Shown here one piece after another: positions 36,273 through 61,499 of a stretch of 64,000 bases of DNA (within the stretch, counting starts at the first letter, position 1; every line of letters starts with the position of its first letter). The stretch is from NCBI GenBank assembly GCA_017744365.1, contig JAGIBL010000003.1:434001-498000 (forward strand), read 5' to 3'. The DNA is from Nocardioidaceae bacterium. Its GTDB lineage: Bacteria; Actinomycetota; Actinomycetes; Propionibacteriales; Nocardioidaceae. Made by a program: the position numbers and the translations under genes. The notes below the pieces were generated by a model. The model worked only from the letters and a program-made list of their open reading frames with translations. It had not been told where the DNA came from and did no database searches.

Positions 36273-36280
36273 GAGCGGTT

Positions 36281-45179: not shown

Positions 45180-45247
45180 CTCCGTCAGGAGCAGGGTGAC
45201 GAAAGGTGCCGCGACTCGGGGTGTGGATGTCGCGAAGGGGGATCGCC

Positions 45248-46135
45248 ATGATCGCTGTGAGGCTGTTCGGAGCAACGACCGTCGAGGTCGACGGACAGGC
45301 GCTACCTTCCGAGGCGCTACGGGGGAGGCCTCGGCAGATCCTCGAGATCCTGGCACTGGCCGCCGGCGCGCCGGTTCCGAAGGACCGGCTGGCCGACCTG
45401 GTCTGGGAAGGCGATCCCCCGGTCTCGCACCACGGCACCCTGGAGAGCTACGTGTGCGTGCTGCGCCGCTCGCTCGGGGTGTGCAGCGGCCGGGCCTCGG
45501 CGCTGGCCACCTCGGCCGGCGGCTACCGGCTGAGCAGCGAGGTCTCCGTGGACCTTGTCCAGTTCCGTCAGCTGGCGCGCGAGGCGCGGGACGCCTCGGC
45601 CGAGCGGGCGGTGCGGGCGATGCTGCAGGCCCTCGACCTGGTCGGCGGCGACCTGCTGCACAGCGAGCCGTACGCCGGCTGGGCGGAGCGCGCGCGCGAG
45701 GTCTTCGCGGCCGACGCGGTGGCCGGGTTCACCCGCGCCGCCGGGCTGGCCAACGGCATCCGCGCGTACGACGACGCCGCCGCCCTGGCCCGCGCGGCCC
45801 TGGGCCACGACCGGCTCTGCGAAGCCGCCTGGCAGCACCTGATCCGCTCGCACTGGCTGGCCGGCCGGCACGGCGAGGCGCTGCGGGCCTACGCCGAGCT
45901 GCGCGCGGTGATGCTCGACGAGCTCGGCGACGAGCCCGGGCAGGAGAGCCGCGCGCTCTACCAGGCGATCCTCGCCGAGCCGGTCGGCGTCACGCACCCG
46001 GCCGCCACCCACGGAGAGCTGCGCACCCTGCTGCGGCTGCTCCGGCAGACCCTGGAGGCGATCCCCGGGGTCCAGGTGCCCGCTCTTGACGCGGGCCTGT
46101 CGGCGGAAGCGATCCGGGTGCTCGGCGTGCGTTAG
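45248..46135 (+). CDS. SARP-type transcriptional activator (AfsR/DnrI-like)
   Basis: 295 residues. An N-terminal OmpR-type winged helix (VRLFGATTVEVDG, LRGRPRQILEILALAAG, DRLADLVWEG, LESYVCVLRRSLG) is followed by a bacterial transcriptional activation domain (about 105-255: LQALDLVGGDLL, AWQHLIRSHWLAGRHGEALRAYAELRAVM in part). It has no C-terminal NB-ARC ATPase, so it is a small SARP. These usually activate secondary-metabolite genes, but no biosynthetic cluster follows. It may control the downstream oxidase locus. ATG 45248 is chosen for the AAGGGGGA upstream. Confidence 0.82.
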   Translation: MIAVRLFGATTVEVDGQALPSEALRGRPRQILEILALAAGAPVPKDRLADLVWEGDPPVSHHGTLESYVCVLRRSLGVCSGRASALATSAGGYRLSSEVSVDLVQFRQLAREARDASAERAVRAMLQALDLVGGDLLHSEPYAGWAERAREVFAADAVAGFTRAAGLANGIRAYDDAAALARAALGHDRLCEAAWQHLIRSHWLAGRHGEALRAYAELRAVMLDELGDEPGQESRALYQAILAEPVGVTHPAATHGELRTLLRLLRQTLEAIPGVQVPALDAGLSAEAIRVLGVR

Positions 46136-46236
46136 CGAACGCCTCATGTGGTCAGATCGGGTCAACACGCTCGCCCCAACGGGGCTATTGCCGCCTGCCC
46201 GAACGGGGGAGAACCTGGGAGGCAAGGGGGAACACA

Positions 46237-46250
46237 CTCACGGGGGTGAG
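46237..46250. promoter_or_regulatory. Small hairpin before the response regulator gene
   Basis: CTCAC-GGGG-GTGAG can fold into a 5-bp hairpin, ending 6 nt before GTG 46257 and covering its weak ribosome-binding region. It could influence translation or be a protein site. Confidence 0.35.
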
Positions 46251-46256
46251 AGAGAG

Positions 46257-46937
46257 GTGTCCCGACCGGAACAGAGAACGAGAACCCGGCCGCAGGCGGT
46301 CGGCGTCCTCGTGGTGGACGACCACCAGGTCTTCGCCCAGCTCGTCGCGATGATGCTGTCGCAGCACGACGACCTGGAGTGCATCGGGATCGCGGCCGAC
46401 GTGGCCAGCGCGCTGGAGATGACCGCGGAGCTGCGACCCGACCTGGTGCTGATGGACGTGCAGCTGCGCGACGGCGACGGGATCGCCGCGACCGAGCAGC
46501 TCACCGCGCTCTACCCCGACCTGCGTGTCGTGGTGCTGAGCGCCTTCATCGACCGGGCGCTGATGCGCCGGGCCGCCCGAGCCGGGGCGTGCGCCCTGCT
46601 GCCCAAGGACGGCGAGGTCGACGACATGCTGCACGCGCTGCGCACCGCCCGGCGCGGCGACTTCGTGGTGCAGCCCCGGCTGCTCAAGGAGCTGGTCACC
46701 GAGAACCGTGGCCATGCGAAGCCACCGCCCCTGACCCATCGCGAGCTGGAGGTGCTCCGCCTGCTCGCCGCCGGCCTGGACACCGGCGTGATCGCGCACG
46801 AGCTCGGCATCTCGGTCAACACCTGCCGCGGCTACGTGAAGACCCTGCTGGCCAAGCTCGGTGCCCACTCGCAGCTCGAGGCCGTGGTGATCGCCATGCG
46901 GCACAAGCTCATCGGCATGGACGATGGCGACGCCTAG
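46257..46937 (+). CDS. LuxR/NarL-family response regulator
   Basis: 226 residues from GTG 46257. Receiver domain: acidic pair at 21-22 (VVDDH), phosphoacceptor Asp67 (LVLMDVQL), conserved Ser in VVLSAF and Lys in ALLPKDGE. NarL HTH: LTHRELEVLRLLAAGLDT and IAHELGISVNTCRGYVKTLLAKLG (in parts). The GTG choice places the receiver domain right at the start; in-frame upstream ATGs exist but give an unstructured extension. The kinase gene begins 14 bp inside its 3' end, so the two are coupled. It may act on the oxidase locus at 48-61 kb. Confidence 0.88.
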   Translation: MSRPEQRTRTRPQAVGVLVVDDHQVFAQLVAMMLSQHDDLECIGIAADVASALEMTAELRPDLVLMDVQLRDGDGIAATEQLTALYPDLRVVVLSAFIDRALMRRAARAGACALLPKDGEVDDMLHALRTARRGDFVVQPRLLKELVTENRGHAKPPPLTHRELEVLRLLAAGLDTGVIAHELGISVNTCRGYVKTLLAKLGAHSQLEAVVIAMRHKLIGMDDGDA

Positions 46938-48282
46938 GCGTCGCACGAGTGCTCGGGCTACCACGACAGAGACCAGGGATCCGGCGCGCCGGGCCTTCTT
47001 CCAGTTCCTGCTGCGCTGCACGACCGCGGTCGTCCTGGTCGCGATCGCGACCTTCCTGGTGTCCCGGTCCGTCTCGGAGCGGCTCGCCATCGACGACGCC
47101 CGCGCGCGCGGCGACGCGTTCACCCGGGGCGTGGTCGCGCCGCTGGTCAACGCCGACATCCGGGAGATGAAGCCGGGCGCCGCCGCCGAGTTCGACAGGA
47201 TCATGCTGAGCCGGCTCAAGACCGGCGCGATCGTGCACATGAAGCTCTGGGACGTCGACGGCACCGTGCTCTGGTCAGACGAGCGCGGCCTGATCGGCCA
47301 GGTCTTCGACCTGGACGCCCCGGTCAAGGCTCGGGCCGGGACCTCGTTCGTGCACGCCGAGCTCTCCGACCTCGACGAGCCGGAGAACGAGCTCGAGAGC
47401 GACGTCGGCAAGCTGCTCGAGGTCTACGTCGGCACCAAGGACGCTGACGGGAACCCGATGATCTTCGAGACCTACTGGTCGGCGTCCCGGCTGCACGCGG
47501 ACGAGCAGTCCGTGCTCTGGGTGATCGCGCCGCTGACCTTCGGGGCCCTGCTGCTGCTGATGCTGCTGCTGGTGCCGCTGGGCGTGACCCTGGCCCGGAC
47601 CTCGACGCGCACCATCCGCGAGCGCAACCGGATGCTGCACCACGCCCTGTCCGCGGCCGACCTCGAGCGCCGCCGCGTCTCGCAGCTGCTGCACGACCGG
47701 GTCGTCCAGGACCTGGCCGGGATCGGCTACGCACTGCCCTCGGCGGCCGAGCACGTCCCGGACGGGCCGGGCTCCGCGGAGGCCCGGGAGATCATCGAGC
47801 ACGCCACCGACGTGGTCCGCGAGGACGTGAACGCGCTGCGCACGATGCTGGTCGACATCTACCCGCCCTCGCTCTCCCTGGGCGAGCTGGCGCCCGCGCT
47901 GCACGAGCTGGCCGCCAAGGCCGAGGAGTCCGGCGTCGTGGTCAGCGTGGAGATCTGGGGCGACGACTCACCGGCCCTGGGCACCAGCCAGCTGATCTAC
48001 CGGATCGTCCGCGAGGGCCTGCTCAACGTCGTCGAGCACTCCGAGGCGAGCCGGGCCTGGGTACGGGTCCGGGTCACCGACCAGAAGGTCGACGTCAGCA
48101 TCAGCGACAACGGCCCGGCGCTGCGGACCGCGGCGGTCCCGGACCGCGACAGCGGGCACTTCGGGCTGCGGCTGCTGCACGACGCGGTCTCCGACCTCGG
48201 CGGCGAGCTGAGCACGTCCGCGGCGCCGGCCGGCGGCACCGTGCTGCGGGGCTGGTTCCCGGTCTCGCTCACCCGGAGCTGA
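46924..48282 (+). CDS. Sensor histidine kinase (HisKA_3 type) with extracytoplasmic sensor
   Basis: 452 residues. First helix TTAVVLVAIATFLVSRSV (about 36-53), an extracytoplasmic domain of about 140 residues, second helix LTFGALLLLMLLLVPLGVTLA (about 205-225), then the phosphoacceptor His257 in RRVSQLLHDRVVQDLAGIGY. HATPase: REGLLNVVEHSEAS and SDNGPAL, ending HFGLRLLHDAVSDLGG. The external domain makes it suited to sense an extracellular signal (CHASE-like, not identified). It overlaps the response regulator gene at its start and the convergent membrane-protein gene by 14 bp at its end. Confidence 0.9.
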   Translation: MATPRRRTSARATTTETRDPARRAFFQFLLRCTTAVVLVAIATFLVSRSVSERLAIDDARARGDAFTRGVVAPLVNADIREMKPGAAAEFDRIMLSRLKTGAIVHMKLWDVDGTVLWSDERGLIGQVFDLDAPVKARAGTSFVHAELSDLDEPENELESDVGKLLEVYVGTKDADGNPMIFETYWSASRLHADEQSVLWVIAPLTFGALLLLMLLLVPLGVTLARTSTRTIRERNRMLHHALSAADLERRRVSQLLHDRVVQDLAGIGYALPSAAEHVPDGPGSAEAREIIEHATDVVREDVNALRTMLVDIYPPSLSLGELAPALHELAAKAEESGVVVSVEIWGDDSPALGTSQLIYRIVREGLLNVVEHSEASRAWVRVRVTDQKVDVSISDNGPALRTAAVPDRDSGHFGLRLLHDAVSDLGGELSTSAAPAGGTVLRGWFPVSLTRS

Positions 48283-48823
48283 CCGCGGCGGCGCTGTCGC
48301 CGTGGTGGTGCCCGCCGCTGAGGGCCGGGCCGAGTGCCCAGGCCGTGACGACCAGCGCGGCCAGGGCCACCATCGCGGCCAGGGCCCGTCCCTGCGGGCG
48401 CGGGACCCCGGCGGCGACGACCGGGTGCCGGCGCAGCAGGTCGGGCGCGGCGGCCAGCACGGTGACCAGCTCCAGGACGGCGCAGAGCACGTCGGCCAGC
48501 CCGACCGGCTCGGGGACCCGGAAGTCGGCCGGCCCGATCGGCATCCCGGCGGTCCGGGAGAGCACCCAGACCGCGACCGGGCCCAGCCCGGTCACCACGA
48601 CGGCCGCGGCCAGGGGGCGCGTCCAGGTGAACCAGGCGAGCACGGCCAGGGCGAGCTGGACCAGCTGGAGGACGAGGAAGAAGACACCGGCGTAGACCCA
48701 CTCGTCGAAGTGCTCACCGGCGACGGCGCCGTGGACGAGCGCGGCACCGAGCAGCGGCACGACGACCGCGACCCGTCGTACGAGCAGGGTGTCGGCAGGG
48801 TCGACCCAGGCGGCTCCGATCAC
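48269..48823 (-). CDS. Membrane protein of unknown function with His-containing tail
   Basis: 184 residues, five predicted helices (VAVVVPLLGAALVHGAVAG, VFFLVLQLVQLALAVLAWFT, PLAAAVVVTGLGPVAVWVL, VLCAVLELVTVLAAA, LAAMVALAALVVTAWALG) and a C-terminal GGHHHGDSAAAVSSG that could bind a metal ion. GTG 48823 has GGTGAG directly upstream. It is divergent from the transglycosylase gene across a gap holding two AGGTnnnnCCAAGG elements. I do not recognise the family. Confidence 0.6.
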   Translation of the reverse strand: MIGAAWVDPADTLLVRRVAVVVPLLGAALVHGAVAGEHFDEWVYAGVFFLVLQLVQLALAVLAWFTWTRPLAAAVVVTGLGPVAVWVLSRTAGMPIGPADFRVPEPVGLADVLCAVLELVTVLAAAPDLLRRHPVVAAGVPRPQGRALAAMVALAALVVTAWALGPALSGGHHHGDSAAAVSSG

Positions 48824-48844
48824 CTCACCAGCATCGGGGGGCGA

Positions 48845-48882
48845 CCTTGGAAGAACCTGGGCCGCGCAAGGTCCGCCCAAGG
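48845..48882. promoter_or_regulatory. Pair of AGGTnnnnCCAAGG elements, opposite orientation
   Basis: CCTTGGAAGAACCT (48845-48858, minus orientation) and AGGTCCGCCCAAGG (48869-48882, plus) face each other in the 80-bp gap between the divergent membrane-protein and transglycosylase genes. The same 14-bp pattern occurs twice upstream of the heme peroxidase (61290-61303 and 61478-61491). Confidence 0.6.
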
Positions 48883-48903
48883 CCGCGGGCGGACGCTGGT
48901 GGG

Positions 48904-50229
48904 GTGAGACACCCTCGCTCCTCGCGCGGCCGCCGGCGGCCCCGGGCCCGGCGCGCGGTGCTGCCGCCGCTGGCCGTGGCCGGCGTGCTCGCACCGCTGC
49001 TCGGAGGAGCCCTGGTGCAGGGGGCCGGCGAGATCGTCGTGGCCGGCCCGGCACAGCCGCCGGCCTCGGTGACGCTGCCGATCCCGCCGGAGCCTCCCGC
49101 GGCCCTGGTGGCGCCGGCGGCCGGCGAACCCGTGATCGACGTGGTGCCCGCGGCCCGGCTGCTCACCAGCGACGTGCCCTGGCAGCTCTGGCAGGCGTAC
49201 TCGCGCGCCGCCGCGGGCACCCCTTCCTCCTGCCACCTGGAGATCAGCCTGCTCGAGGCGATCGGCCAGGTGGAGTCGGGCTCGCTGGCCGGCCGGGCGC
49301 TCGACGCCGGCCACCGCGCGGTGCCCGCCGTCCTCGGACCGGTGCTGGACGGCCGCCGGTTCGCGGCGATCCGGGACACCGACGACGGGCGGCTCGACGG
49401 CAACACCACCTGGGACCGGGCGGTCGGGCCGATGCAGTTCATCCCGAGCACCTGGGCGCGCTGGGGCGTCGACGCCGACGGCGACGGCCGCGCGGACCCC
49501 CAGGACATCGACGACGCGGCCGCCGGCACCTCCGCCTACCTCTGTGCCGGCGGCCGCGACCTCTCCACCGCGGCGGGACTGCGCGCGGCGGTCCTCTCCT
49601 ACAACCACTCGACGGCGTACCTGGCCGTGGTGCTGCGCTGGAAGGCGCGCTTCGACGCGACCGCGCCGGGAGCGGGCGTGGTGGCCCTGCCGATGGCGCT
49701 GCCGGCCGCGCCCGCGAAGCCGCGGCACCCGAAGCCGAAGCCCGCGCCGCACCCGGTGGTGCTGGCCGAGCCGGCTCCCGTGGTGACGAAGCCGGAGCCT
49801 CCCGCACCGGAGCCTCCGGCCTCCCAGCCTCCGGTGGTGCAGGAGCCTCCCTCCGCGGAACAGCCGGCCGAGGAGCCACCCGCCCCGGAGCCGCCGGTCT
49901 CGCAGCCGCCGGTCTCGCAGCCGCCCGCCCCGGAGCCTCCGGCGGAGCAGCCGCCCGCTACCTGCGCGGCACCCGCGGACGAGACCGAGGTGCCGGCCGA
50001 GGAGCCCGCCCCGGGCACCGAACCGGCCGCATCCGCTTCCCCGAGCACACCCGCCGCGCCTGCACCTGCCGAGGATCCGGCGCCGGTCCCTGGCACCGGC
50101 CCGAACGCGTGCGAGACCGACGGCGACGAGGGCGGGGAGCCGGCAGGCGACGTCCCGGACGAGCCGCCCGCCCCGGTGGCCGGGGACCCCGCGGTCCCCG
50201 CGGAGCCCGGGCCGGCACCGACGCCCTGA
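48904..50229 (+). CDS. Secreted lytic transglycosylase with proline-rich tail
   Basis: 441 residues from GTG 48904. A basic n-region and hydrophobic signal (RRAVLPPLAVAGVLAPLLGGALVQG) are followed by a lytic transglycosylase domain with catalytic Glu124 in IGQVESG, AVGPMQFIPSTW (173-184), an EF-hand-like DADGDGRADPQDIDD and AVLSYNHS. This is the MltB-like group that cleaves peptidoglycan glycan strands. After about residue 265 comes a long Pro/Glu/Ala-rich tail (repeats PxPPxPE, PVSQPP) that likely spans the wall. It ends facing the multicopper oxidase gene with a shared hairpin. Two 14-bp elements precede it. Confidence 0.85.
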   Translation: MRHPRSSRGRRRPRARRAVLPPLAVAGVLAPLLGGALVQGAGEIVVAGPAQPPASVTLPIPPEPPAALVAPAAGEPVIDVVPAARLLTSDVPWQLWQAYSRAAAGTPSSCHLEISLLEAIGQVESGSLAGRALDAGHRAVPAVLGPVLDGRRFAAIRDTDDGRLDGNTTWDRAVGPMQFIPSTWARWGVDADGDGRADPQDIDDAAAGTSAYLCAGGRDLSTAAGLRAAVLSYNHSTAYLAVVLRWKARFDATAPGAGVVALPMALPAAPAKPRHPKPKPAPHPVVLAEPAPVVTKPEPPAPEPPASQPPVVQEPPSAEQPAEEPPAPEPPVSQPPVSQPPAPEPPAEQPPATCAAPADETEVPAEEPAPGTEPAASASPSTPAAPAPAEDPAPVPGTGPNACETDGDEGGEPAGDVPDEPPAPVAGDPAVPAEPGPAPTP

Positions 50230-50283
50230 TCGACATCCTGACGCTGTTCATCACGGCTCCCCCCGGACCCAGAACCAGACCCC

Positions 50284-50312
50284 GACGCCAGCCCCTAGCA
50301 GGGGCTGGCGTC
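50284..50312. terminator. Hairpin shared by transglycosylase and multicopper oxidase genes
   Basis: GACGCCAGCCCC (50284-50295) pairs perfectly with GGGGCTGGCGTC (50301-50312) across the 5-nt loop TAGCA. The stem includes the last codons and stop codon (50295-50297) of the oxidase gene. No T-run follows; GC-rich terminators without U-tract are common in actinobacteria. Confidence 0.65.
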
Positions 50313-53300
50313 CACGCGCCGGACGGTGCAGGTGTCCGAGGGCAGCACCCGCTGCAGGCCCCAGAGGCCGGCCGCGGCGAACGGGCGGCGCAGGTCACCG
50401 TAGAAGTAGTCACCCGGACGGCCGCCGCCGGCGCCGCCGACGATGTTCAGGTCGAAGGTCTCCCAGGCGCCCATGCCCTGCGCGCTCATCCAGTTCGAGC
50501 TCCCGGTGTGGCGATCCTGCGGCCAGCGCAGCCCGCCCAGCGAGAACACGTGGCTGTTCTCGCTGCCCGGGGCGCCGACCACGTGCACGACCGTCGGTTC
50601 GCCGGCGTAGCCGGTCAGCGTCGGCACCCCGCCGGGGTCGGTGAAGGTCTCACCGGCCGGGGCGGCGCTGTAGGTCAGCAGCGAGCGGCCCACGTTGGCG
50701 TCCGTCGGGTACGGCATCTGGTCGCGGCCGATGGCGATGTCGTCGTCGGCGACGAACACGGTGTCGTCGCGGTAGTTCGGCTCCGCCTGGCCGGGCGCGC
50801 GGACCAGCACCTGCGGACCGAGGTCCTTCAGCGCGCCGGTCGACGGGTCGCGGAAGATGGTCGGCTGACCGCCGACCGTCGACGTGGGCGCGACCACCAC
50901 GGCGCCGTACAGGCCGCTCTTCATGCTGGTGGCGTTGGCCAGGTCGCCGATCGCGGCGCTGCCGATGTGGTCGGTGGGCACGTAGTACTTGTAGACGCGG
51001 GTGGCGCCCGGGTCGGTGTTCTGCTCCGGGTTGTAGCCGACGTCCACGCCGCCCGAGCCGGCCTCGCGGTCCAGCTTGCCCATCGCGAACCCGACCGGGG
51101 TGAGCAGCTGGTTGCGCAGCGTCACGGTCACGCACTCGCCGGCGACCACGTGCATCACCAGCGGCTCGGGCAGCTTCAGGCGCTGCTTGATCGCGGCGGC
51201 GTCCACGGTCGGCACGTAGGCCGTCCGGGCACCGTTGAACGTGCCGGACCGATCGATCGCGGTCAGGTCGAAGGAGCGTGCGGGGGCTCCGGCCGGGCAC
51301 GGGTCGCCCGGCCCTGCGGCGGCCGGTGGGGCGCCTCCGGTCATCGTCGGCTCCGTGTACGACGCGCTCGGCGTGCTCACGCCCGGCAGCGGCTTCAGGC
51401 CCGGGATCAAGCCGGGCAGCACCCGGACGATGCCCCAGGCGCCCTGCTGGGTGCGGTTCTCCATGCCGTTGGCGTAGAGATAGTCGCCGGGCCGCAGCCG
51501 CATCTCGCTCGGCTCGCCGTTGAGCACCAGCGTGAACCGCTCGCTGATCCCGCTGTGGATCGCGTCGATGATCGTGCCGGCAGGGACGCCGTTGTGTGTG
51601 TAGCGCGGCTCGAGCAGCGTCTTCGCGCCCAGGAAGTGCAGCGTGTCCAGGGACGGCGAGATGCTGATCGTCCTGACCACCAGCGGGTCGTCCGGATACA
51701 GCTTGGGCAAGGGCGTCAGCGGGTCGCCGTACGTCCACGAGCTGAACTGGTGCGCCTTGTCCGGCCGGTCGATCAGCGGGTTGGCCTTGAGGTTCAGCGT
51801 CGAGTAGAGGTCCGCGTCGTTGTCGTTGATCGTCCACAGCGCGAGCTCGCGGAAGCTGCCGTCCACCAGGCCGGGAGCCAGCGGGTTCGAGGTGTGGATG
51901 TCGACGATCGTGCCGGAGTCGACCGGCTGGCCGGTCACCGGGTCGGTCCAGGTCGAGCCTTTCGGCTCGACGATGATCTGCCCGACCAGACCGTGGCCCC
52001 AGCCGTGGATGCCGTCGACGTGGTCGTGCCAGAAGATGTTGTCCAGCAGCACGTCCGGGTACCAGCGGCTCTGCAGGAACTCGGTGCCGGCGAAGTCGCC
52101 CACGTTGTGGGTCTTGTTGAGTCCGGACGTCAGGGTGACCGTGCGGGTCCCGGTGCTCACCGACTTGATCTGCTTGATCTCGATGTTCTCGGTGCCCTGG
52201 CCGATCGCGATCCACTTGGTCGTCGCCTTGCCGTTGGCATCGGTGCCGGTCAGGCCGGCCACTGAGGACAGCTTGACGAAGTTGGCGCCGTTGAGCGGCT
52301 TCTGGGTCAGCGTGGCCTCGACGCGGTTGTAGGGCCGCACGCTGTGCTCGTAGGCGAACCCGGCACTGACACCGTCGGAACCCTGGATGTCGAACTGCAC
52401 GTGGTGGATGTGCATCGAGACCTTGGAGAAGTTGTCGAAGGTCTTGTCGTCGGGGATCTCGCTGTTCAGGGTCAGCGCGACGCAGTCGCCCTGGTTGGCC
52501 CGGATCGCCAGCGGCTCGCCCTTCTCCGGGTCGGCCAGCAGCGCGGCCTTGTTCTTGGCCAGCACGAAGACCTTGCCCTCGTTGTCGACGAAGGTCGGCG
52601 TCCGGCGGATCGGCTTGGCCACCGCGACGATGTTGTAGGTGCGTGTCGTCCTGCCGGCGGGGCAGAGCCCGTCGGTGCGGTGCGCGTAGGGATCGACACC
52701 GCTGCCGGACGCGGAGGCGTCGGCGTTGTTGCCCAGGTACGGCGCACCGGTGTGGCCGTTGCCGGTGAACGGTGGCCGGCCGCCGATGTGCGGGCGCAGC
52801 AGCGGGTACGCCGGCCGCCCGTTGAGCGGGTTGAACAGGATCGTCGGCCGGCCGCTGACGACCCGGCCCTGGTCGACGAGCAGCAGGTTCGGCTGCCCGG
52901 GGACGACCTGCGGGGATCCGGGGGCGACGGTCTGGTCACCGGGCGCACCCAGGTACAGCGGCTGCGAGGTCGTCCCGGCCACCTTCCAGTCCATCACCGT
53001 GGCGTCCTGGTTGTTCGCGGGGACGCCCGAGGGCGGCAGCTGCGGACGGATCCAGGAGTCCAGGTTCTTCGCGGTGATCTTGGTGCCGCCGTAGGTGTGC
53101 CCGATCAGGCCGGCCGAGGTCACCGCGGCGGGCGGGGCCATCCGGTCGCCCAGCGGGACCAGGTCCGGCTGCAGGGTGTCGTAGACCCGCCACAGGGCCC
53201 ACATGCCCGACACGTAGTGCTTGGCGATGTGGCAGTGGAACAGGAAGTCGCCCACCGACTGCTGGACGCCGCCGGCGCCGCCCTCGAGCTCGAGGTTGTA

Positions 53301-54902
53301 GGACTCGCCGGGGCCGATCGACTGCGAGTCGAGCCGCTGCGAGGGAGACAGGGCGGTTGCGGGGTCCTTGCGCAGGCCGGTGTCGGCGTAGTTGTACGTC
53401 GAGTCGGAGACCGGGTTGAACCGCCACCGGTCACCGCCGCCGTGCAGGTGGTAGATGTGGAACTTCTCGCTGCCGGCGTGCATCAGCCGGATCTTGGTCG
53501 GATCGGCGAGGTAGCCGCGCATCATCGGCGTCGAGGGCTCCCCGAAGGTGTAGGAGCTGTACGCGTGGCTCTTCTCCTGCCGGAAGTCCAGCAGCCGGTT
53601 GCGGAAGGGCTCGCTGCGGTAGTTGATCGCGAAGGCGCCGGGCCGGTAGGAGCCGGTGGTGTTGTCGACCAGCGGGACCAGCAGGCCGCTCTTGTCGGTG
53701 ATCTGCTCGTTGTCGTTGCCGATCTCGTGGTGCAGCAGCGCGGCCTCGCGGAAGGCGCAGGTCGGCTGCGGGCTGTCCACCACGCAGGGTGCGTCGGTGC
53801 CGGCCGGCTTGATGATCGCCTCCCATCCCGACGCGAGCGGGGTGGCCGGGTCGCTGGCGTCCCAGTACGTCGACCCCGGCGGCTCGACGTTCAGCGCCCC
53901 GAAGAGGCCGTGGTTGACGTCGGCCCGGTGTCCCGGCCCCGGGTGCACGTAGTGGCCGCCCTCGGCGCGCCGGTCGTCCGGCACCAGGTAGCGGTAGGTC
54001 ACGGTGCCGCCCTGGACCGCGGCCGACGAGGCGTTCTGGCCGACCTGGTCGCCCGAGGAGGAGACCGCGAACTCGAGGCCGTCGATGTGCATCCCGAGCG
54101 GGCCGCGCGCGGTGTCGTTGGTGAAGGTGACCGCGACGCAGTCGCCCTGGTTGGCGCGGATCACCAGCGGCTGGATCGGGTCGTCGCGCAGCCCGATGGA
54201 GACCTGCTGGGTCTGCTCCTGGTGGCGGATCGCGGAGACCTGGCTGGTCAGCGCGTACATCACGCCGTGCGGGTCGTGGTCGCCGAACCGGTTGATCGGG
54301 ATGTCCACGTCGAGCGCGGTCACGTCGAAGCTCTTGTCGGCCGGGCCGCCGTCCAGGCAGCCGGGCGTGGCGGCGGTCGCGGTGCCGACGGGGGTCAGCG
54401 CGATCACCGCCGCCGCGGTGCTGAACCCCATGACGGTGGCCACCAGGCGGCGCGCCTGCCGGGTGCTCGGCACCTGCGCCCGTCGTACGAGCTGGAGGAG
54501 GACGACCAGCGGGACCAGCACGACCAGCGCGGTGCTGGCGTCCCCGAGCACCGCACCCGAGCCGTCGACGTGGCCCTCGGTGACCGCGTGCAGCTGGGCG
54601 CCGAGCGCGACGGTGAAGGCGAGCGCCGGCGCCAGCCAGAGCACCTCGCGCACCGGCGAGTCCGGCTGCCGGCCCCGCTGCCCGTCGCTGCGCAGCAACG
54701 CGAGCAGGACGACGGCGGCCAGCACCGTCTGGGTCATCGAGAGGCCGACCAGCCCGCCGACCTGCGCCAGCGTCGAGCCGTGGCCGTGCCGCGACGGCTC
54801 GGCGAGCACCAGCCAGGCCGAGCCGGCCAGGCAGCACAGCAGGCCGAGCATCGCGTCGGCGAGAAGAGTCCGGATCCGTGCGGCGGCAGGGAAGGGGGAC
54901 AT
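50295..54902 (-). CDS. Giant membrane-anchored multicopper oxidase (MnxG/MofA-like)
   Basis: 1535 residues. The N-terminal ~180 residues hold 4-5 membrane helices, then the chain turns extracytoplasmic at TATAATPGC. Several cupredoxin domains follow. All four copper motifs are present but permuted: HIYHLH (482-487) and HCHIAKHYVSGM (556-567, type 1 Cys557, His562, Met567) come before HIHH (831-834) and HDH (959-961); laccases have the reverse order. A degenerate domain (MHIDG 271-275, HYVHPG 317-322) precedes, and metal-less cupredoxin-like repeats fill 1150-1535. MnxG/MofA Mn(II) oxidases are similarly giant. GGAGG precedes the ATG; it follows the accessory gene by 3 bp. The substrate is inferred, not shown. 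Confidence 0.85.
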   Translation of the reverse strand: MSPFPAAARIRTLLADAMLGLLCCLAGSAWLVLAEPSRHGHGSTLAQVGGLVGLSMTQTVLAAVVLLALLRSDGQRGRQPDSPVREVLWLAPALAFTVALGAQLHAVTEGHVDGSGAVLGDASTALVVLVPLVVLLQLVRRAQVPSTRQARRLVATVMGFSTAAAVIALTPVGTATAATPGCLDGGPADKSFDVTALDVDIPINRFGDHDPHGVMYALTSQVSAIRHQEQTQQVSIGLRDDPIQPLVIRANQGDCVAVTFTNDTARGPLGMHIDGLEFAVSSSGDQVGQNASSAAVQGGTVTYRYLVPDDRRAEGGHYVHPGPGHRADVNHGLFGALNVEPPGSTYWDASDPATPLASGWEAIIKPAGTDAPCVVDSPQPTCAFREAALLHHEIGNDNEQITDKSGLLVPLVDNTTGSYRPGAFAINYRSEPFRNRLLDFRQEKSHAYSSYTFGEPSTPMMRGYLADPTKIRLMHAGSEKFHIYHLHGGGDRWRFNPVSDSTYNYADTGLRKDPATALSPSQRLDSQSIGPGESYNLELEGGAGGVQQSVGDFLFHCHIAKHYVSGMWALWRVYDTLQPDLVPLGDRMAPPAAVTSAGLIGHTYGGTKITAKNLDSWIRPQLPPSGVPANNQDATVMDWKVAGTTSQPLYLGAPGDQTVAPGSPQVVPGQPNLLLVDQGRVVSGRPTILFNPLNGRPAYPLLRPHIGGRPPFTGNGHTGAPYLGNNADASASGSGVDPYAHRTDGLCPAGRTTRTYNIVAVAKPIRRTPTFVDNEGKVFVLAKNKAALLADPEKGEPLAIRANQGDCVALTLNSEIPDDKTFDNFSKVSMHIHHVQFDIQGSDGVSAGFAYEHSVRPYNRVEATLTQKPLNGANFVKLSSVAGLTGTDANGKATTKWIAIGQGTENIEIKQIKSVSTGTRTVTLTSGLNKTHNVGDFAGTEFLQSRWYPDVLLDNIFWHDHVDGIHGWGHGLVGQIIVEPKGSTWTDPVTGQPVDSGTIVDIHTSNPLAPGLVDGSFRELALWTINDNDADLYSTLNLKANPLIDRPDKAHQFSSWTYGDPLTPLPKLYPDDPLVVRTISISPSLDTLHFLGAKTLLEPRYTHNGVPAGTIIDAIHSGISERFTLVLNGEPSEMRLRPGDYLYANGMENRTQQGAWGIVRVLPGLIPGLKPLPGVSTPSASYTEPTMTGGAPPAAAGPGDPCPAGAPARSFDLTAIDRSGTFNGARTAYVPTVDAAAIKQRLKLPEPLVMHVVAGECVTVTLRNQLLTPVGFAMGKLDREAGSGGVDVGYNPEQNTDPGATRVYKYYVPTDHIGSAAIGDLANATSMKSGLYGAVVVAPTSTVGGQPTIFRDPSTGALKDLGPQVLVRAPGQAEPNYRDDTVFVADDDIAIGRDQMPYPTDANVGRSLLTYSAAPAGETFTDPGGVPTLTGYAGEPTVVHVVGAPGSENSHVFSLGGLRWPQDRHTGSSNWMSAQGMGAWETFDLNIVGGAGGGRPGDYFYGDLRRPFAAAGLWGLQRVLPSDTCTVRRVDASPC

Positions 54903-54905
54903 GGT

Positions 54906-55493: not shown

Positions 55494-55515
55494 GCGTCCG
55501 ATACTGCGCCGCGGC

Positions 55516-55529
55516 CCTTGTACGGAACT
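55516..55529 (-). promoter_or_regulatory. Degenerate copy of the 14-bp element before the accessory gene
   Basis: On the minus strand AGTTCCGTACAAGG matches AGGTnnnnCCAAGG at 8 of 10 fixed positions. It lies 23 bp upstream of the accessory gene start. Weak on its own; noted because the other copies surround the same locus. Confidence 0.3.
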
Positions 55530-55543
55530 TGCACGTGAACGCG

Positions 55544-55575: not shown

Positions 55576-55595
55576 GTGCTGCGATGCGTTTCCTC

Positions 55596-58500
55596 CTAGG
55601 TGCTGAAGTTCCAGGTCACCGCGACCAGGCGGTTGCCCGCGAGGTCTCGGATCCCGTTGGTCAGGTTGACCCGGAAGGTCCGCCCGGCCGGGAGGTTCAG
55701 CACCGGGTTCAGCGTGGCGGTCAGGCCGTCCGCGCTCAGCGTCACGACTGCCAGGACCCGGACGTTGCCCGTGGTGTTGGTCAGGGTGAAGCTGTTGGCG
55801 GCGAGCGTGACCGGCTCGTTGAACGTGACCACCGTGTTGGCACCCACCGGAACCCCGGTGGCTCCCGGAGCCGGCGTCCTGGTGAGGACGAGCGGCGGGA
55901 TGGTGTCGAGCACCGTCCGGAAGGTCCACGACGTGGTCGCCAGCGGGTTGCCCGCGGTGTCCCGGATCGCCGCGGCTCCGCCGGTCAGCGTGGCCGTGTA
56001 CAGGTTGTTGTTCAGCAGCGGCGCGTTCGGTGTCAGGGTCGCCGTGTTCCCGACCAGGGTGACCGTCGCCGGCACGAGCTGCCCGCTGATCACCCTCCTC
56101 AGCTGGAACGTGGTGGCACTGACTCCGGTCACCGGCTCGCTGAACGTCGCCGTCACCGTGGTGTTCAGCGGGACACCGGTGGCGTTGGCCGCCGGGGTCC
56201 GTGCCGTCACCGTCGGCGGGGTGGTGTCCGCGAGCACCGTCACCGCGTTGGACGGAGCACTGTTCGCGCCCGTGCCCACCGCGTTGACCGCTGCCACCCG
56301 CAGCCGCACCGAGGTGCCGGCCGCCAGACCCGTGACCGTCGCGCTCGTGGCGGCAGGTCCAGCCGTCGTCGAGCCGACCACGGTGTTGGCCGCGTTGATG
56401 GCCTGCACGACGTACCCGGTGATCGCCGACCCGCCGTTGCTCCCCGGTGCCGTCCAGGTGACGCTCGCCGAGTTGACCCCGGCGGTCGCCGTTCCGATGG
56501 TCGGCGCACCCGGAGCCGTGTTCGCGGGCGTGACCGCGTTGGACTCCGCCGAGAACGGGCTGGTGCCGAAGGCTCCGACCGCCCGCACCTTGAAGGTGTA
56601 GGTGGTGCCGTTGGTCAGACCGGTGATGTGCGCGGTCGTGTCGGTCGACGGAGCGGTCCGCAGAGCACCCTGCTGGACGCCTCCGCTGAGCACCTGGATC
56701 TCGAACGAGCTCACCGGCTGACCGGTGGCCGCAGCAGTCCAGCTGACGTCGGCGGAGGACGGTCCGGGCGAGGCGGTCCCGATCGTCGGCGCGTCGGGAG
56801 CGGCCAGCACGACCGTCTCCGTGGTGCCGTCGTCGTTGGTGAACCGCAGCTGCTCGATGTTGCGCAGCTGGTCCGTCCCGTCGCTGACCTTCTGGGCCGC
56901 ACCGAGCGGGCCCGTCTGGTCCACGACGAGGTGGTCGCCCACCGAGGTGACCGTGTAGCTGGACCGCGGACCGAGGTACACCGCCGTGTCGACGGCCGGT
57001 GCCGGGCTGGCGGCCGAGCTCGTCGCATCGCGGTCGCCGGCCGGTGCCGGCATCAGCTGCCGGCCGATGGTCAGCTGACCCGGGTCGACCACACCGGCGA
57101 ACACGTCCTGCTGCAGCGTCCGCGTGCCGTTGGAGTACGTGTGCTCCAGCAGGTCGGTGGTCCCGATGACCGGGCCGGTGCCGTCAGCGTTCTGGTGCAC
57201 GTCGATGCTCACCTTCAGCGAGCGGTCGCCGTCGATGATGTCGTTGGCGCCACGACCGGTGATCGTGTCGCTACCGCCACCACCGATGAGGATCTCGCCG
57301 TCGCCCCAGACGTTCCCGGTCAGCGGGCAGGTGCCCGCGGCCGCGTTCGCGTTGAGGGTGGAGGCGGGAACCGTCAGCATGGCCGGCGTGACCAGGACGT
57401 TCAGCCCGGCGATCCGGTCGATGCCGGCCTGGTCGAGGGCGTCACAGCCGGCGAACCCGGCGCCGCCGAGGGCGGTGGGGGTGTCGTCGGTGCCCCGGAT
57501 GACGTCGTTGAGCGCCGAACCCGAGTTGGCCTCGGTCTCCTGCCAGCGGTCACGGTTGACGACCACCTGGATCGGCACGCCGACCAGGTTGTTGTTGATC
57601 GACATGTCGTCGTCGGCCGGCGTGGTGTCGTACTGGTGGATGGCCCAGTCGAAGCCACCGGCACCGGCGTTGCGGTCGACGAACGAGTTCTGCGACATGA
57701 GGTCGTCGCCGCCCTCGGCGTCGTAGTCGTTCTCGCCGACCTGACCGACCATCACCTCGTTGCCCGGGGCGGACTCGCCCGGGTCGTCGAAGAACGGCGC
57801 ACCGTGGTCACCCTGGATCAGGTCCTGACCGGAGCCGCCCTCCATCCAGTCGTCGCCGCCGTCACCGAAGGCCGCGTCGGCGCCCTGACCGAGGATGATG
57901 AAGTCGGAGCCGGGTCCGCCGAACTCCTCGTTGTCGTTGGCACCACCGTTGAGGACGTCCTGGCCGTCGCCACCGAGCAGCAGGTCGTCACCGATGCCGC
58001 CGTCGCCGGCGTCGTTGCCGGGTCCGCCGGACTGGACGTCCGCTCCGGAGATGTCGGTCATGACATCGTTGCCCTCACCGCCGAGGGTGACGTCGTCGCC
58101 GCCGTTGCCCTCGAGGATGTCGTTGCCCAGAGCACCCCAGAAGGTGTCGTTGTCGTTGCCGCCGAAGACGCGGTCGACACCGTCGGCGCCCATGTAGACC
58201 GACTGGCCGTTGATGCCCGGCGGGTCCACGCTGTTGAACTGCTTGTACTGGATGGTTCCATCCGGCTTGCGCGTCAGCAGCGCGGTCTCGTCGCACTCGG
58301 TCGACGGGTCATCGGCCACGGTGGCACCGTTGGCGGTGAACCCGGCAGCCGTGCCGGCGAGGTTGGCGAGCTGGAACTTGCAGTCGGCGGTCGCGAACGC
58401 GTCCGCCTTCAGCGTGTTCGTGTTGTCGGTGTTGCGCTGGATCAGCTCGGAGAACGAGTTGCTCTCCAGCTGAGTGCGCAGGTTCAGGCCCGGCGTGCGC

Positions 58501-61235
58501 GCCAGGTAGTAGAACCGGTCGCCGTCCTGCAGCCGCTCCAGGTTGGACTGGAACACGTAGTTGAACGTGCTGCCCAGCAGGCCCCCGAAGAGGTTGGTGA
58601 TCTCGGCGAGGCCACCGACCCACAGGTCGACGTCGTCCACACCTGTGGTGGTGACGCCGTCCGGGTCACTGGCCCAGGCACCGGTGCTGAACATGAAGTC
58701 ACCGGCGTCGCCCGGAGGCGTGTCACCCGGCTGCGGGTCGACGATGGCACGAGCCGCGGCACGCTTGCCCGCGATCGTGTCGACACCCGTGATGGTCGGG
58801 TGCTTGCCGTACGCCGCCACGAAGTTGATGAGGGACTCGGGGTGCTTGAGGTGCTGCCCGAAGTCGCTCCAGCTCGTGTACGGCGCCATCTGGCCGTCGT
58901 TGGTGTCCGCGAAGATCTGCCGGCGCAGGTCGTTCAGCGGCGGGATGCCGGCCTCGCGAGCACGCGTCATGTTGATCGTCGGGAGGTCGAGCGGCAGACC
59001 CAGCAGGTTGTTGCGCAGGGTCTCGGTGACGAACTCGTCGAGCTCGTTGCCGACCTGGTCGGAGGAGCCCATGATGATGGACCCCGCGGCCGCCTTCGCG
59101 CCGAGCGTGCCCGCGCTGCCACCGTCGAAGAACTCCGGTGGGTTGAGGAACGCGGTCAGCAGCGGCAGCGAGTTGTCGGAGCCGTCGGCGTTCTTGCGCG
59201 CCACGTCGTCGTCGAGCATGGAGTGCCCGAACCGGTACACGGCGTGCGCGAACTCGGCCACGATCGCCGGGTTGAGGTCCGGGGAGTACACGTGGAACGG
59301 CCGGATCGCCGGCTGGACCTTGCGCGCGAACTCCTCGAAGACCAGGTGCTGGTACTCCATCTCGGTGACGAAGCGCGCGGCCTGGAACAGGCGCTCGCCG
59401 TAGTCGTAGCCGCTGACGCCCAGGGCCTGCCACTGCGCCAGCCGGGCCACGCCGGCTGCCGAGGTGTCCGAGGTGAGCAGGTTGTTGATGTAGCCACGCA
59501 GCCTGTCGTGCTCGGAGTGGAAGATCTGGTGCACAGTCGAGAGCGCGATGTTCTCGTTGCAGCGACCGTCACCGCAGGACAGGTGCATGTTCAGCATCTC
59601 GTCGTCGTACGTGCCTGCCGGCTGGTTGAGGAAGTCGGCCGACGGCTGGTCGTCCGCGTCCGGCGCCGGCGTGCAGTTGCAGGTGCCCGGCCCGGCCTGC
59701 GGGCTCGGGTCTGCGTTGTGCGCGATGTCGCCCACGAACGGCGTGTCGAAGTGCAGCACGTTCGCCGGCACCGGGACCGGGGCAGCGAGGTTGCCCTCGA
59801 CCAGACCGGTCTTGGTCACGTACTGCGGCAGGCCCCGCAGCGGGCCGGGGATGTACTTGCCGTACGGGTCCGTGGCCAGCATCGGGACGTTAGTGACGTC
59901 CGCGTCGGTCAGCAGCAGGCCGAGCTTCTCGGCCGCCTGCTTCTTGACGGCGTACCAGTTGCCGATCGCCTCGGTGCTGTCCGGGGAGCCCGGGTAGACC
60001 GCATTCGCCGCGGGACCGCTGAGGAGCCTGCCGGTGGAGACCGACGCCGGGTTGCCGGCGCCGAACGGGCCGGGCCGGCTGCTCGCGGCGTACTCGCGCA
60101 GGAAGACCTGGTGCGAGGCGTGCGAGGTGTAGGTCTGGCTCTGGTCCACCCACGGGGTGTCGGTGTTGTTGGCGTTCTGGATGTCGTCGGCCGACTCGTC
60201 CGCCGGGGTGCTCGGGTCGTCGCCGAGGATGCCGTCGGGACCGGGCTGGTTCTGGGCGCGGGTGAGCACCATGAACGCCTTGTCCGGGGTCACCTCGTCA
60301 CCGGTGCCGGCCTTGCCGTCCGGGCCGAGCGTGATGAGCGGGTCGTCCGGCTTGAGCGGGACGAACACGGTGCCGCCGCTCTTCACGGTCTGGTCGACGC
60401 CGTGGTCGAAGAACTGGCCGAAGAACGTGAACAGGCTGTTGTACGGCGGCGAGAGGCCGACGTCGGTGGTCACGTTCGGGATGAACAGGGTCTTGTGGCT
60501 GGGCACGCAGTCGTCCGGGGTCCCGTTGGGGTCCGCCGGGGTCGGGTCGATCGTGCACGGAGTCACGCCGGTGGCGCCCTGCGAGCGCACCGGGAAGCCG
60601 GCAGCAGCGATGGCGGCCGGGTTGGTGGAGGTCTGGTCGACGATCAGGTTGCTGATCGTGCGCGGACGCGAGTCGAAGACGTTGCCCTTCTTCTGGGCGT
60701 AGCTCGTCGGTCCCGGAGGCCCGAAGCCCGGGGGCACGTCCTCGGCGGGGCGGAAGCGCGGCGTGGTCAGCCGCGGGAACGGCTGGTCGGCCGCGGACAG
60801 GTAGGCGTCCCCGGCCTTGAGGTTGTTGCAGGATCCGTCGACGGTGCGAAGCCCGTACGACGTGAGGATGTCCGGCACCTGCTCGGTGTCCGGGATCCCG
60901 TCACCCGGCGTGTTCAGCAAGGTGCTGCACGGCTTGTCCGGCGTGCGCGTGAGCGAATGCCGCTCGGCGATCTTGATCTGCTTGAGGATGAAGTCGAGAT
61001 CGCCGGTGGTCACGGTGAACCCGGCGCCCACCGTGTTGCTCACCGCGGCATGCGCGGGCGTGTTCAGTACCTGCATCCCGAGCGCGAACGGCATCACGAA
61101 CGCGCTGACCACGGCGATCAGGCGCGTTCGTCTCGGTGTCGTCCGGCTGGTCCGATGACGAGGTGGATGCGAGCGCCTCCGAGCCAGCGCGGCGTGGGTA
61201 GAACTGGTGGAACTGCCTGAGCTGAACGAAATCAT
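55596..61235 (-). CDS. Giant secreted animal-type heme peroxidase with RTX, FN3 and Ig-like modules (MopA-like)
   Basis: 1879 residues from ATG 61235 (AGGCAGG upstream; an in-frame ATG at 61331 adds 32 residues). Long basic n-region with RRTRLIAVVSAF signal and APAHA-like cleavage (TPAHAAVSN). Peroxidase domain (about 130-900): distal His278 in FFGQFFDHGVD, catalytic Arg621 in AARFVTEMEYQHLVFEEFAR, proximal His671 in YRFGHSMLDDD. RTX/Ca-binding repeats about 1020-1140 (GGEGNDVM, GGDGQDVLNGG) and 1318-1336; FN3 domains about 1479-1570 and 1576-1665; two SbsA/Big_5 Ig-like domains to the end. MopA-type Mn(II)-oxidising peroxidases share the heme-plus-RTX design. Adjacent to the multicopper oxidase operon. 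Confidence 0.9.
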   Translation of the reverse strand: MISFSSGSSTSSTHAALARRRSHPPRHRTSRTTPRRTRLIAVVSAFVMPFALGMQVLNTPAHAAVSNTVGAGFTVTTGDLDFILKQIKIAERHSLTRTPDKPCSTLLNTPGDGIPDTEQVPDILTSYGLRTVDGSCNNLKAGDAYLSAADQPFPRLTTPRFRPAEDVPPGFGPPGPTSYAQKKGNVFDSRPRTISNLIVDQTSTNPAAIAAAGFPVRSQGATGVTPCTIDPTPADPNGTPDDCVPSHKTLFIPNVTTDVGLSPPYNSLFTFFGQFFDHGVDQTVKSGGTVFVPLKPDDPLITLGPDGKAGTGDEVTPDKAFMVLTRAQNQPGPDGILGDDPSTPADESADDIQNANNTDTPWVDQSQTYTSHASHQVFLREYAASSRPGPFGAGNPASVSTGRLLSGPAANAVYPGSPDSTEAIGNWYAVKKQAAEKLGLLLTDADVTNVPMLATDPYGKYIPGPLRGLPQYVTKTGLVEGNLAAPVPVPANVLHFDTPFVGDIAHNADPSPQAGPGTCNCTPAPDADDQPSADFLNQPAGTYDDEMLNMHLSCGDGRCNENIALSTVHQIFHSEHDRLRGYINNLLTSDTSAAGVARLAQWQALGVSGYDYGERLFQAARFVTEMEYQHLVFEEFARKVQPAIRPFHVYSPDLNPAIVAEFAHAVYRFGHSMLDDDVARKNADGSDNSLPLLTAFLNPPEFFDGGSAGTLGAKAAAGSIIMGSSDQVGNELDEFVTETLRNNLLGLPLDLPTINMTRAREAGIPPLNDLRRQIFADTNDGQMAPYTSWSDFGQHLKHPESLINFVAAYGKHPTITGVDTIAGKRAAARAIVDPQPGDTPPGDAGDFMFSTGAWASDPDGVTTTGVDDVDLWVGGLAEITNLFGGLLGSTFNYVFQSNLERLQDGDRFYYLARTPGLNLRTQLESNSFSELIQRNTDNTNTLKADAFATADCKFQLANLAGTAAGFTANGATVADDPSTECDETALLTRKPDGTIQYKQFNSVDPPGINGQSVYMGADGVDRVFGGNDNDTFWGALGNDILEGNGGDDVTLGGEGNDVMTDISGADVQSGGPGNDAGDGGIGDDLLLGGDGQDVLNGGANDNEEFGGPGSDFIILGQGADAAFGDGGDDWMEGGSGQDLIQGDHGAPFFDDPGESAPGNEVMVGQVGENDYDAEGGDDLMSQNSFVDRNAGAGGFDWAIHQYDTTPADDDMSINNNLVGVPIQVVVNRDRWQETEANSGSALNDVIRGTDDTPTALGGAGFAGCDALDQAGIDRIAGLNVLVTPAMLTVPASTLNANAAAGTCPLTGNVWGDGEILIGGGGSDTITGRGANDIIDGDRSLKVSIDVHQNADGTGPVIGTTDLLEHTYSNGTRTLQQDVFAGVVDPGQLTIGRQLMPAPAGDRDATSSAASPAPAVDTAVYLGPRSSYTVTSVGDHLVVDQTGPLGAAQKVSDGTDQLRNIEQLRFTNDDGTTETVVLAAPDAPTIGTASPGPSSADVSWTAAATGQPVSSFEIQVLSGGVQQGALRTAPSTDTTAHITGLTNGTTYTFKVRAVGAFGTSPFSAESNAVTPANTAPGAPTIGTATAGVNSASVTWTAPGSNGGSAITGYVVQAINAANTVVGSTTAGPAATSATVTGLAAGTSVRLRVAAVNAVGTGANSAPSNAVTVLADTTPPTVTARTPAANATGVPLNTTVTATFSEPVTGVSATTFQLRRVISGQLVPATVTLVGNTATLTPNAPLLNNNLYTATLTGGAAAIRDTAGNPLATTSWTFRTVLDTIPPLVLTRTPAPGATGVPVGANTVVTFNEPVTLAANSFTLTNTTGNVRVLAVVTLSADGLTATLNPVLNLPAGRTFRVNLTNGIRDLAGNRLVAVTWNFST

Positions 61236-61289
61236 GGCGAACCTGCCTCGGCATCGAGAGACATTGATCTGGCCACCTTCGGAGCACGC

Positions 61290-61303
61290 CCTTGGGAAAA
61301 CCT
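61290..61303 (-). promoter_or_regulatory. 14-bp element, proximal copy
   Basis: CCTTGGGAAAACCT on the plus strand (AGGTTTTCCCAAGG on the peroxidase strand), 55 bp upstream of the peroxidase ATG. It is identical to the copy at 61478-61491. Confidence 0.6.
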
Positions 61304-61331
61304 TGCGGATGCCGGAGTCCTCGGACAGCAA

Positions 61332-61364
61332 CCGGCCTCCGCGGCACGAGGTCGCGGAGGCCGG
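61332..61364. terminator. Hairpin downstream of the D-2-hydroxyacid dehydrogenase gene
   Basis: A perfect 12-bp stem CCGGCCTCCGCG/CGCGGAGGCCGG around a 9-nt loop. It is a good GC-rich terminator candidate and insulates the peroxidase promoter from read-through. Confidence 0.6.
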
Positions 61365-61477
61365 TCGGACGGTGCTCGAACTGGGGGGAAAAGCACCGCC
61401 TCAGCGCCGTCCCGGGACGGCGCGGGGACGTCATTCCTCCAGAGGTCTAGACGTCCGCCGCCAACGTAGGAAGGGCG

Positions 61478-61491
61478 CCTTGGGAAAACCT
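61478..61491 (-). promoter_or_regulatory. 14-bp element, distal copy
   Basis: CCTTGGGAAAACCT again, 188 bp from the proximal copy and 243 bp upstream of the peroxidase ATG, just past the stop of the D-2-hydroxyacid dehydrogenase gene. Confidence 0.55.
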
Positions 61492-61499
61492 CGAACGTC

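Follow-up and report, generated by a model that had tools for sequence, protein, structure and literature searches.

Gene content of the locus

The DNA analysed here (the window, 64 kb) comes from a Nocardioidaceae genome of 4.76 Mb and contains a locus in which a giant multicopper oxidase and a giant animal-type heme peroxidase lie beside a SARP-type activator and a two-component pair. The locus is a candidate for a SARP-controlled extracellular oxidation system. Five of its genes are referred to by labels coined in this analysis: MCO for the multicopper oxidase, PX for the peroxidase, LT for a lytic transglycosylase, and SP and MP for two membrane proteins. PX, SP and MCO follow one another on the minus strand, with a gap of 102 bp between PX and SP and of 3 bp between SP and MCO. 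The SARP, response regulator, histidine kinase and LT genes occupy the plus strand, LT standing tail to tail with MCO, and MP is a further minus-strand gene located between the kinase and LT. SARP-type tandem heptamer boxes precede PX, SP-MCO, LT and MP. An earlier note on this DNA overlooked both MP and these common promoter boxes, and placed the start of the locus at 45248, an internal ATG of a SARP frame that begins at 45206. In the following list, the membrane helices (MCO, MP) and signal peptides (PX, LT) were judged by eye.

45206..46135, plus strand: SARP-type activator, with BTAD and Trans_reg_C (an OmpR-type DNA-binding domain)
46086..46937, plus strand: NarL-type response regulator (Response_reg and GerE; synteny), overlapping the end of the SARP gene
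46924..48282, plus strand: histidine kinase (HisKA_3 and HATPase_c; synteny)
48269..48823, minus strand: MP, membrane protein of 184 residues with HHHG close to its C-terminus
48843..48860, minus strand: SARP-type box, 37 bp ahead of the MP start codon
48867..48884, plus strand: SARP-type box, 37 bp ahead of the LT start codon
48904..50229, plus strand: LT, lytic transglycosylase of 441 residues (SLT_2) with a secreted-looking N-terminus
50295..54902, minus strand: MCO, MnxG-superfamily multicopper oxidase of 1535 residues with hydrophobic N-terminal helices
54906..55493, minus strand: SP, putative membrane-anchored Ig-like protein (YcdA/DUF4352-like) of 195 residues with a GMxH motif and a C-terminal His cluster
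55514..55531, minus strand: SARP-type box, 38 bp ahead of the SP start; a weak matrix match at the fixed spacing
55596..61235, minus strand: PX, animal-type heme peroxidase with RTX, fn3 and Big_5 domains, 1879 residues from the first ATG
61288..61305, minus strand: SARP-type box in the PX promoter, the best site in the window
61476..61493, minus strand: second SARP-type box 5' of PX

The true start of the response regulator probably lies within the annotated frame 46086..46937. Two plus-strand open reading frames, 48789-52265 and 48302-48907, were rejected as genes because their translations are Arg/Gly-rich and look non-coding, and a tblastn signal of the latter was traced to MP on the opposite strand. 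A further plus-strand frame, 55584-61220, lies opposite PX.

Conserved linkage and shared promoter boxes

We compared the locus with related loci, which carry L-numbers (for example, L035) as labels. All counts of MCO loci refer to the best 80 of 245 relatives from one scan, 79 of them distinct, among which the nearest named relatives are from Nocardioides. SP was found near MCO by tblastn in 23 of the 79 (SP-containing loci), and a distant SP copy lies about 5 kb from MCO in L093 and L096. Eight loci, all among the 23, keep PX, SP and MCO in one order and strand: two from Nocardioides, five from Intrasporangiaceae and one from a Thermoleophilia metagenome-assembled genome (L051), whose oxidase frame contains two stops and may represent a broken copy. 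In L103, PX is joined to an oxidase of the MnxG clade. Several contigs with SP end close to it, which leaves the presence of PX undecidable there.

The label 'linked to MCO' requires at least four changes in the PX tree (starred branches), and linkage to MCO has therefore been gained or lost several times. Across a sample of 293 genomes of the order (E ≤1e-20), MCO was found in 3 and PX in 14, all 3 falling within the 14; the probability of this overlap is 9e-5 if the two are independent, a figure that is too small given the relatedness of the genomes.

The regulators show a similar association. A tblastn match to the SARP (E ≤1e-8) occurs in 16 of the 23 SP-containing loci versus none of the 56 others, two groups that differ in taxonomy and do not make a clean control, and kinase and regulator are matched together in 11 of the 23 versus 5 of the 56. 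Four loci (L045, L054, L056 and L086) carry SARP, kinase, regulator, SP and MCO in order on one strand, while 4 of 11 stand-alone PX loci (L147, L148, L150 and L152) match the SARP, response regulator and histidine kinase. Within its own genome, the window SARP is the sole short BTAD protein among five BTAD matches. PX is flanked by genes for a D-2-hydroxyacid dehydrogenase (61500-62537, minus strand) and an FAD-linked oxidase (62284-63831, plus strand). Neither was matched in a comparison with 11 related MCO loci, but L146, a stand-alone PX locus, contains a 56% match to the dehydrogenase.

Known SARP sites are direct heptamer repeats with an 11-bp period that lie just 5' of the -10 region at a set distance from the start. 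Upstream regions of the locus show two AAGG units spaced 11 bp, and direct 7-bp repeats with the 11-bp period and a fixed distance to the start, the hallmark of SARP sites, are found at the SP, LT and MP promoters. Allowing up to two mismatches, the pattern AAGRTTTNCCCAAGG matches three times in the window (0.06 expected). Genome-wide, it gives 14 matches versus 3 for the reversed pattern, and two of the only three sites with at most one mismatch fall in the PX promoter. The top three sites of the window belong to the PX (two sites) and MP promoters.

With box matrices trained on groups other than that of the locus being scored, the best or second-best site of the locus lies 5' of SP or PX in 16 of the 23 SP-containing loci, the PX starts of L035 and L036 being approximate. 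Per-promoter p values, calculated relative to the other 300-bp segments of each locus, fall below 0.05 for 10 of 23 SP promoters (0.057 for the window SP). Among PX promoters, the same holds for the 4 tested of the 10 linked ones and for 7 of the 11 that stand alone, whose start positions are approximate. The five best sites of the respective loci include no box at the PX promoters of L037, L041 and L051 or at LT of L049. A high-scoring box just 5' of MCO in L103 was not used; loci lacking SP score similarly.

The spacing of the boxes is more telling. In 13 of the 16 listed SP promoters, 37 or 38 bp separate the box from the start codon; at LT and MP the distance is 37 bp in the window, L035 and L036 (three LT and three MP promoters). 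A pattern combining the exact box, spacing and start, written after the sites had been seen, returned seven hits in three genomes, six of which are SP and LT promoters of the locus, and its reversed control returned none. So short a distance between box and start would imply leaderless transcripts. The promoters suggest that one dedicated activator turns both oxidases on together.

A very strong box, CAAGGTTTGTCCAAGGTC, occurs elsewhere in the genome (L174 ~7773; C8:663774) 5' of a gene whose 1726-residue product begins with a signal-peptide-like stretch; the neighbouring gene encodes a HEFAH-motif protein. The 1726-residue protein gene is perhaps a further member of the regulon. Together with the box that LT carries at the same spacing, this site could be read as the trace of a starvation or development programme of the envelope, in which the SARP would induce a wall hydrolase along with large secreted proteins, and the role of the oxidases would be to cross-link or modify the envelope. 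Hits of the exact pattern are nearly confined to the locus, however, and characterized members of both enzyme families use dissolved substrates; we regard an envelope programme as unlikely.

The locus is a real unit. The earlier note had placed oxidase and peroxidase side by side, an arrangement borne out by the eight loci that keep the order, and had joined the SARP and the two-component pair to the enzymes, which both synteny and promoter boxes uphold. PX and SP-MCO are each found without the other, and could thus have come to lie together by chance while serving separate functions. Yet their order is kept in two families and in a metagenome-assembled genome of another class, boxes stand at both promoters and the regulators are of shared kinds, so that a chance neighbourhood strikes us as very improbable indeed.

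The two oxidases, their partners and their substrate

MCO (~163 kDa) comprises Cu-oxidase_3 and Cu-oxidase_2 domains and is homologous over its full length to the solved Bacillus MnxG chain 9bxa (E 1.6e-89). The aligned stretches start at residue 191 and run along the chain, some of them off the diagonal via internal repeats. Eleven His/Cys ligand positions (H482, H485, H487, H556, C557, H558, H562, H831, H833, H959 and H961) are identical in all 59 aligned sequences, the window protein included, and all 59 show the unusual ligand order of MnxG, with HxxHxH and HCHxxxH preceding two HxH pairs. At axial position 567, 48 of these sequences have Met and 11 have Phe. Chain A of 9bxa reads HCHLYPA, a motif whose last residue in a Priestia relative and in all 59 aligned proteins is His, a type-1 copper ligand; the solved chain is perhaps an engineered variant.

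For a tree of these oxidases, 82 rows were collected, 23 (fragments and others) were dropped and 59 were kept. The tree is a quick search run without bootstraps, in which the long branches L114 and L088 are flagged, and a Priestia protein stands in for Bacillus MnxG because it matches 9bxa end to end (1700 bits). Two major clades are separated with a Shimodaira-Hasegawa-like approximate likelihood ratio (SH-aLRT) support of 100. One (15 rows) unites Priestia MnxG with long actinobacterial proteins; the other (44 rows) holds the window MCO, the SP-linked oxidases and many proteins from Chloroflexota and proteobacteria. Judged by homology and phylogeny, MCO is a member of the MnxG superfamily and not MnxG proper.

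PX joins an animal heme peroxidase domain (PF03098, 178.6 bits) to RTX (PF00353), fn3 and Big_5 domains. Six residues, Q306, D309, H310, R590, E593 and H703, which we equate with the pocket of lactoperoxidase and myeloperoxidase, are kept in all 28 sequences. A 'REHNR' region was rejected as the peroxidase Arg motif; the catalytic Arg lies in CGDGRCNE, which is conserved. A Cys pair, C586/C591, brackets this Arg (CGDGRC; window ~59576-59559, minus strand) in 7 of the 28 sequences, namely the window PX and 6 of 9 other MCO-linked PX, versus none of 18 unlinked ones, and might form a disulfide or act as a redox switch close to the heme.

PX is 43-48% identical to seven aligned relatives from proteobacterial plasmids. 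The best ranked of its plasmid relatives (L116) is from a plasmid of Rhizobium sp. RCAM05350, which came from cave wall fouling. Alphaproteobacterial plasmid relatives (L117, L118, L141 and L142) lie near response-regulator genes, that of Bosea (L118) also near an Nramp transporter, and control linked to metals may be a general trait of these PX-related peroxidases. Extracts of a study of Erythrobacter MopA assign that enzyme to the long peroxicins, which combine a peroxidase domain with a hemolysin-type calcium domain (PMC6247904) and have a published size range of 1600-3300 residues. A place for PX among the long peroxicins, at the level of the subfamily, is supported by its sequence.

Most of what the earlier note said of these proteins has stood. 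Domain matches confirm both enzyme classes. The 1535-residue oxidase has every one of its eleven copper-ligand positions, the Met/His-containing membrane protein (SP) lies 3 bp from MCO, and the RTX-bearing peroxidase of some 1880 residues measures 1879, with domain matches and a signal peptide recognized by eye. Its labels need trimming. 'MopA-like' is apt for the subfamily (domains, RTX, size) and not for MopA itself, and 'MnxG/MofA-type' captures the full-length homology to MnxG and the ligand order but neither the clade nor the score of 121.9 bits, against a cut-off of 3100, under the curated MnxG equivalog model NF041487.

The membrane partners belong to less familiar families. SP is predicted to form a helix (residues 21-47) followed by an Ig-like sandwich (mean predicted local distance difference test score, pLDDT, 82.9), and the predicted fold resembles YcdA (E 3.5e-6) and YjhA (5.8e-4), with modest TM-scores of ~0.4. 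DUF4352 is matched by 15 of 25 members of the SP family (E ≤0.1, best 9.9e-6), the window SP not being among the matches shown, and a sequence search of the PDB with SP gave no useful match. Recurring features of the family are a GMxHG-like motif and a cluster of His residues at the C-terminus. MP matches the membrane domain found at the N-terminus of long MnxG-like proteins (L094 6e-8, L095 8e-7, L112 4e-5 and L099 9e-4), in which a domain encoded by a separate gene in the window is fused to the oxidase. Because of this homology, MP seems to work together with MCO, at least in Nocardioides. L094 and L095, whose MnxG-like genes carry the domain fused, contain extra copies of it elsewhere in the locus.

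Since SP carries Met/His motifs, and MnxG-like genes are bordered by CopC/CopD genes on plasmids of Priestia and Streptomyces (one of each), one might suppose a copper-tolerance locus, with Cu(I) oxidized by MCO and copper handled by SP and MP. Among the scanned neighbouring proteins, however, there is neither CopC/CopD nor a copper pump, and PX has no evident part in copper tolerance. We consider this quite improbable.

We favour the view that the locus is a dedicated extracellular oxidation system under SARP control, with Mn(II) as its most likely substrate, and put the probability of this reading at roughly 0.5. A single extracellular oxidation system is proposed because the gene set is conserved and jointly boxed, and Mn(II) is the best single guess for its substrate because both enzyme families include the known bacterial Mn oxidases; we put the chance that Mn(II) is the substrate at about one half.

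The steps of such a system can be sketched. The NarL-type pair and then the SARP would act in sequence, the SARP binding the tandem 7-bp repeats and so switching on four transcription units: PX, SP-MCO, MP and LT. LT would open the cell wall for the exported giant proteins. MCO, presumably held in the membrane through its N-terminal helices and equipped with a type-1/trinuclear copper centre arranged as in MnxG, would use O2 to oxidize a small reductant outside the cell, Mn(II) being the likeliest. SP could replace MnxE/MnxF as a partner anchored in the membrane and bind either copper or the substrate metal, with MP as a second membrane partner in Nocardioides. PX would be released and stabilized by Ca, and would either oxidize the same substrate with H2O2 or act on the product of MCO. 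The fullest version, in which one actinobacterial regulon builds a two-enzyme Mn(II)-oxidizing machine outside the cell from a MnxG-superfamily oxidase that works with O2 and a MopA-type peroxidase that works with H2O2, with SP (plus MP in Nocardioides) in place of MnxE/F, a wall hydrolase for exit and SARP-type promoters, is offered tentatively, and we would sooner bet against it than on it.

A number of observations weigh against the proposed Mn(II) system. We know of no strain carrying the locus that has been shown to oxidize Mn. SP-MCO occurs without PX in many loci; PX was not found beside SP-MCO in loci such as L045, L047, L054, L056 and L086 despite room for it, and 11 of the 14 PX-bearing genomes of the order sample lack MCO. 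LT and MP lie outside the wider conserved core, because they are matched in only 4 (L035, L036, L049 and L072) and 2 (L035 and L036, both Nocardioides-type) of the 23 SP-containing loci. The transglycosylase, which the earlier note had counted in, thus has its box in three Nocardioides-type loci in its favour and this narrow distribution against it.

Neither of the two best sites lies 5' of SP or PX in 7 of the 23 loci (L042, L043, L045, L050, L051, L054 and L086), the regions upstream of the SARP, regulator and MCO genes of the window have no notable box (p 0.13 to 0.35), and the best box scores of L057-L101, whose median is 14.3, go up to 22.2 (in L087, which lacks SP). Since loci without SP reach high scores, the position of the boxes, and not the score alone, carries the argument. 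A search of the window, L035, L036 and L037 at gathering thresholds revealed no Mn riboswitch; the only riboswitch is for thiamine pyrophosphate (TPP; window 36178-36287, plus strand), 5' of the thiamine genes ThiG, phosphomethylpyrimidine kinase and ThiC.

The enzymes themselves add to these reservations. MCO falls outside the Bacillus-type MnxG clade and far below the NF041487 cut-off, although Priestia MnxG fails it too (353 bits), and the model is therefore narrow. SP was rejected as a homologue of MnxE/F: two small Priestia proteins 5' of MnxG were taken for MnxE/MnxF by size and place, and the SP profile gave a probability of 0.1% with each. Finally, extracts of PMC11930936 describe MopA as never showing activity in wild-type P. 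putida GB-1 or in mutants without its two MCOs.

The distinct clade of MCO also leaves room for a co-regulated system with a substrate other than Mn. This could be a halide (iodide or bromide) or else phenols together with humic matter, oxidized outside the cell for competition or to break down organic matter. Among solved structures, the PX domain is closest to lactoperoxidase and peroxinectin, and extracts of the published record have lactoperoxidase oxidizing halides (PMC6247904) and IoxA, another multicopper oxidase, oxidizing iodide (PMC9415286). By the same extracts, though, MopA-type enzymes, assigned to the long peroxicins, oxidize Mn(II) (PMC6247904), and IoxA is a protein of ~62 kDa (PMC9415286) while MCO, at ~163 kDa, has its full-length homology with MnxG. 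MCO was rejected as an IoxA-type iodide oxidase on size and neighbours; SCO1/SenC, which are genes of the iox cluster, had no match among the scanned neighbour proteins of the locus. A non-Mn substrate of this kind is possible, though we find it doubtful.

If Mn(II) is indeed the substrate, the locus bears on matters that extracts of recent work call open questions, namely the regulation and purpose of Mn oxidation (PMC11930936), in a phylum that an excerpt of a soil study describes as prominent among the strong Mn oxidizers of deeper soils (PMC3772008). It offers named isolates, Nocardioides sp. Root240 and Terrabacter sp. Root85 among them, a dedicated activator, testable promoter boxes and two enzymes that can be deleted separately or jointly, and SP and MP provide two unstudied protein families as partners of MnxG-superfamily oxidases. 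Should the substrate not be Mn, a conserved, SARP-linked oxidase system will still have been defined.

Relation to known systems

In searches of open-access full text, we recognized no paper that describes such a locus, or that names such enzymes in Nocardioides or Intrasporangiaceae. Nor, to our knowledge, has a locus joining both bacterial classes of Mn oxidase been known before. The nearest parallel for MCO is MnxEFG of Bacillus, a close relative of which is found on Priestia plasmids. The two systems share full-length oxidase homology, the order of copper motifs and a small-protein gene directly 5' of the oxidase. The window system differs in that its oxidase belongs to another major clade and has a hydrophobic N-terminal region, in its SARP linkage, and in having a single Ig-like SP (plus MP in Nocardioides) instead of MnxE/F-like proteins.

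PX, in turn, resembles the MopA-type peroxidases of Alphaproteobacteria and Pseudomonas in its animal peroxidase domain, RTX repeats and size. It departs from them in a signal-peptide-like N-terminus, C-terminal fn3 and Big_5 domains, linkage to MCO and the Cys pair around the catalytic Arg, which is seen in 7 of 28 sequences, all of them MCO-linked.

Both enzyme classes also meet in one organism in P. putida GB-1, whose genome, according to extracts of PMC11930936, contains MnxG, McoA and MopA together. In the window, by contrast, the genes lie together in a single locus and have the same kind of promoter box. The Mn-oxidase genes of P. putida GB-1 presumably lie at separate places, and Mn oxidation in that strain is reportedly under two-component control (Geszvain and Tebo 2009, by its title). 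The known SARP-controlled clusters of actinobacteria, for their part, mostly drive antibiotic genes, whereas the SARP-linked genes described here encode two oxidases, membrane proteins and a wall hydrolase.

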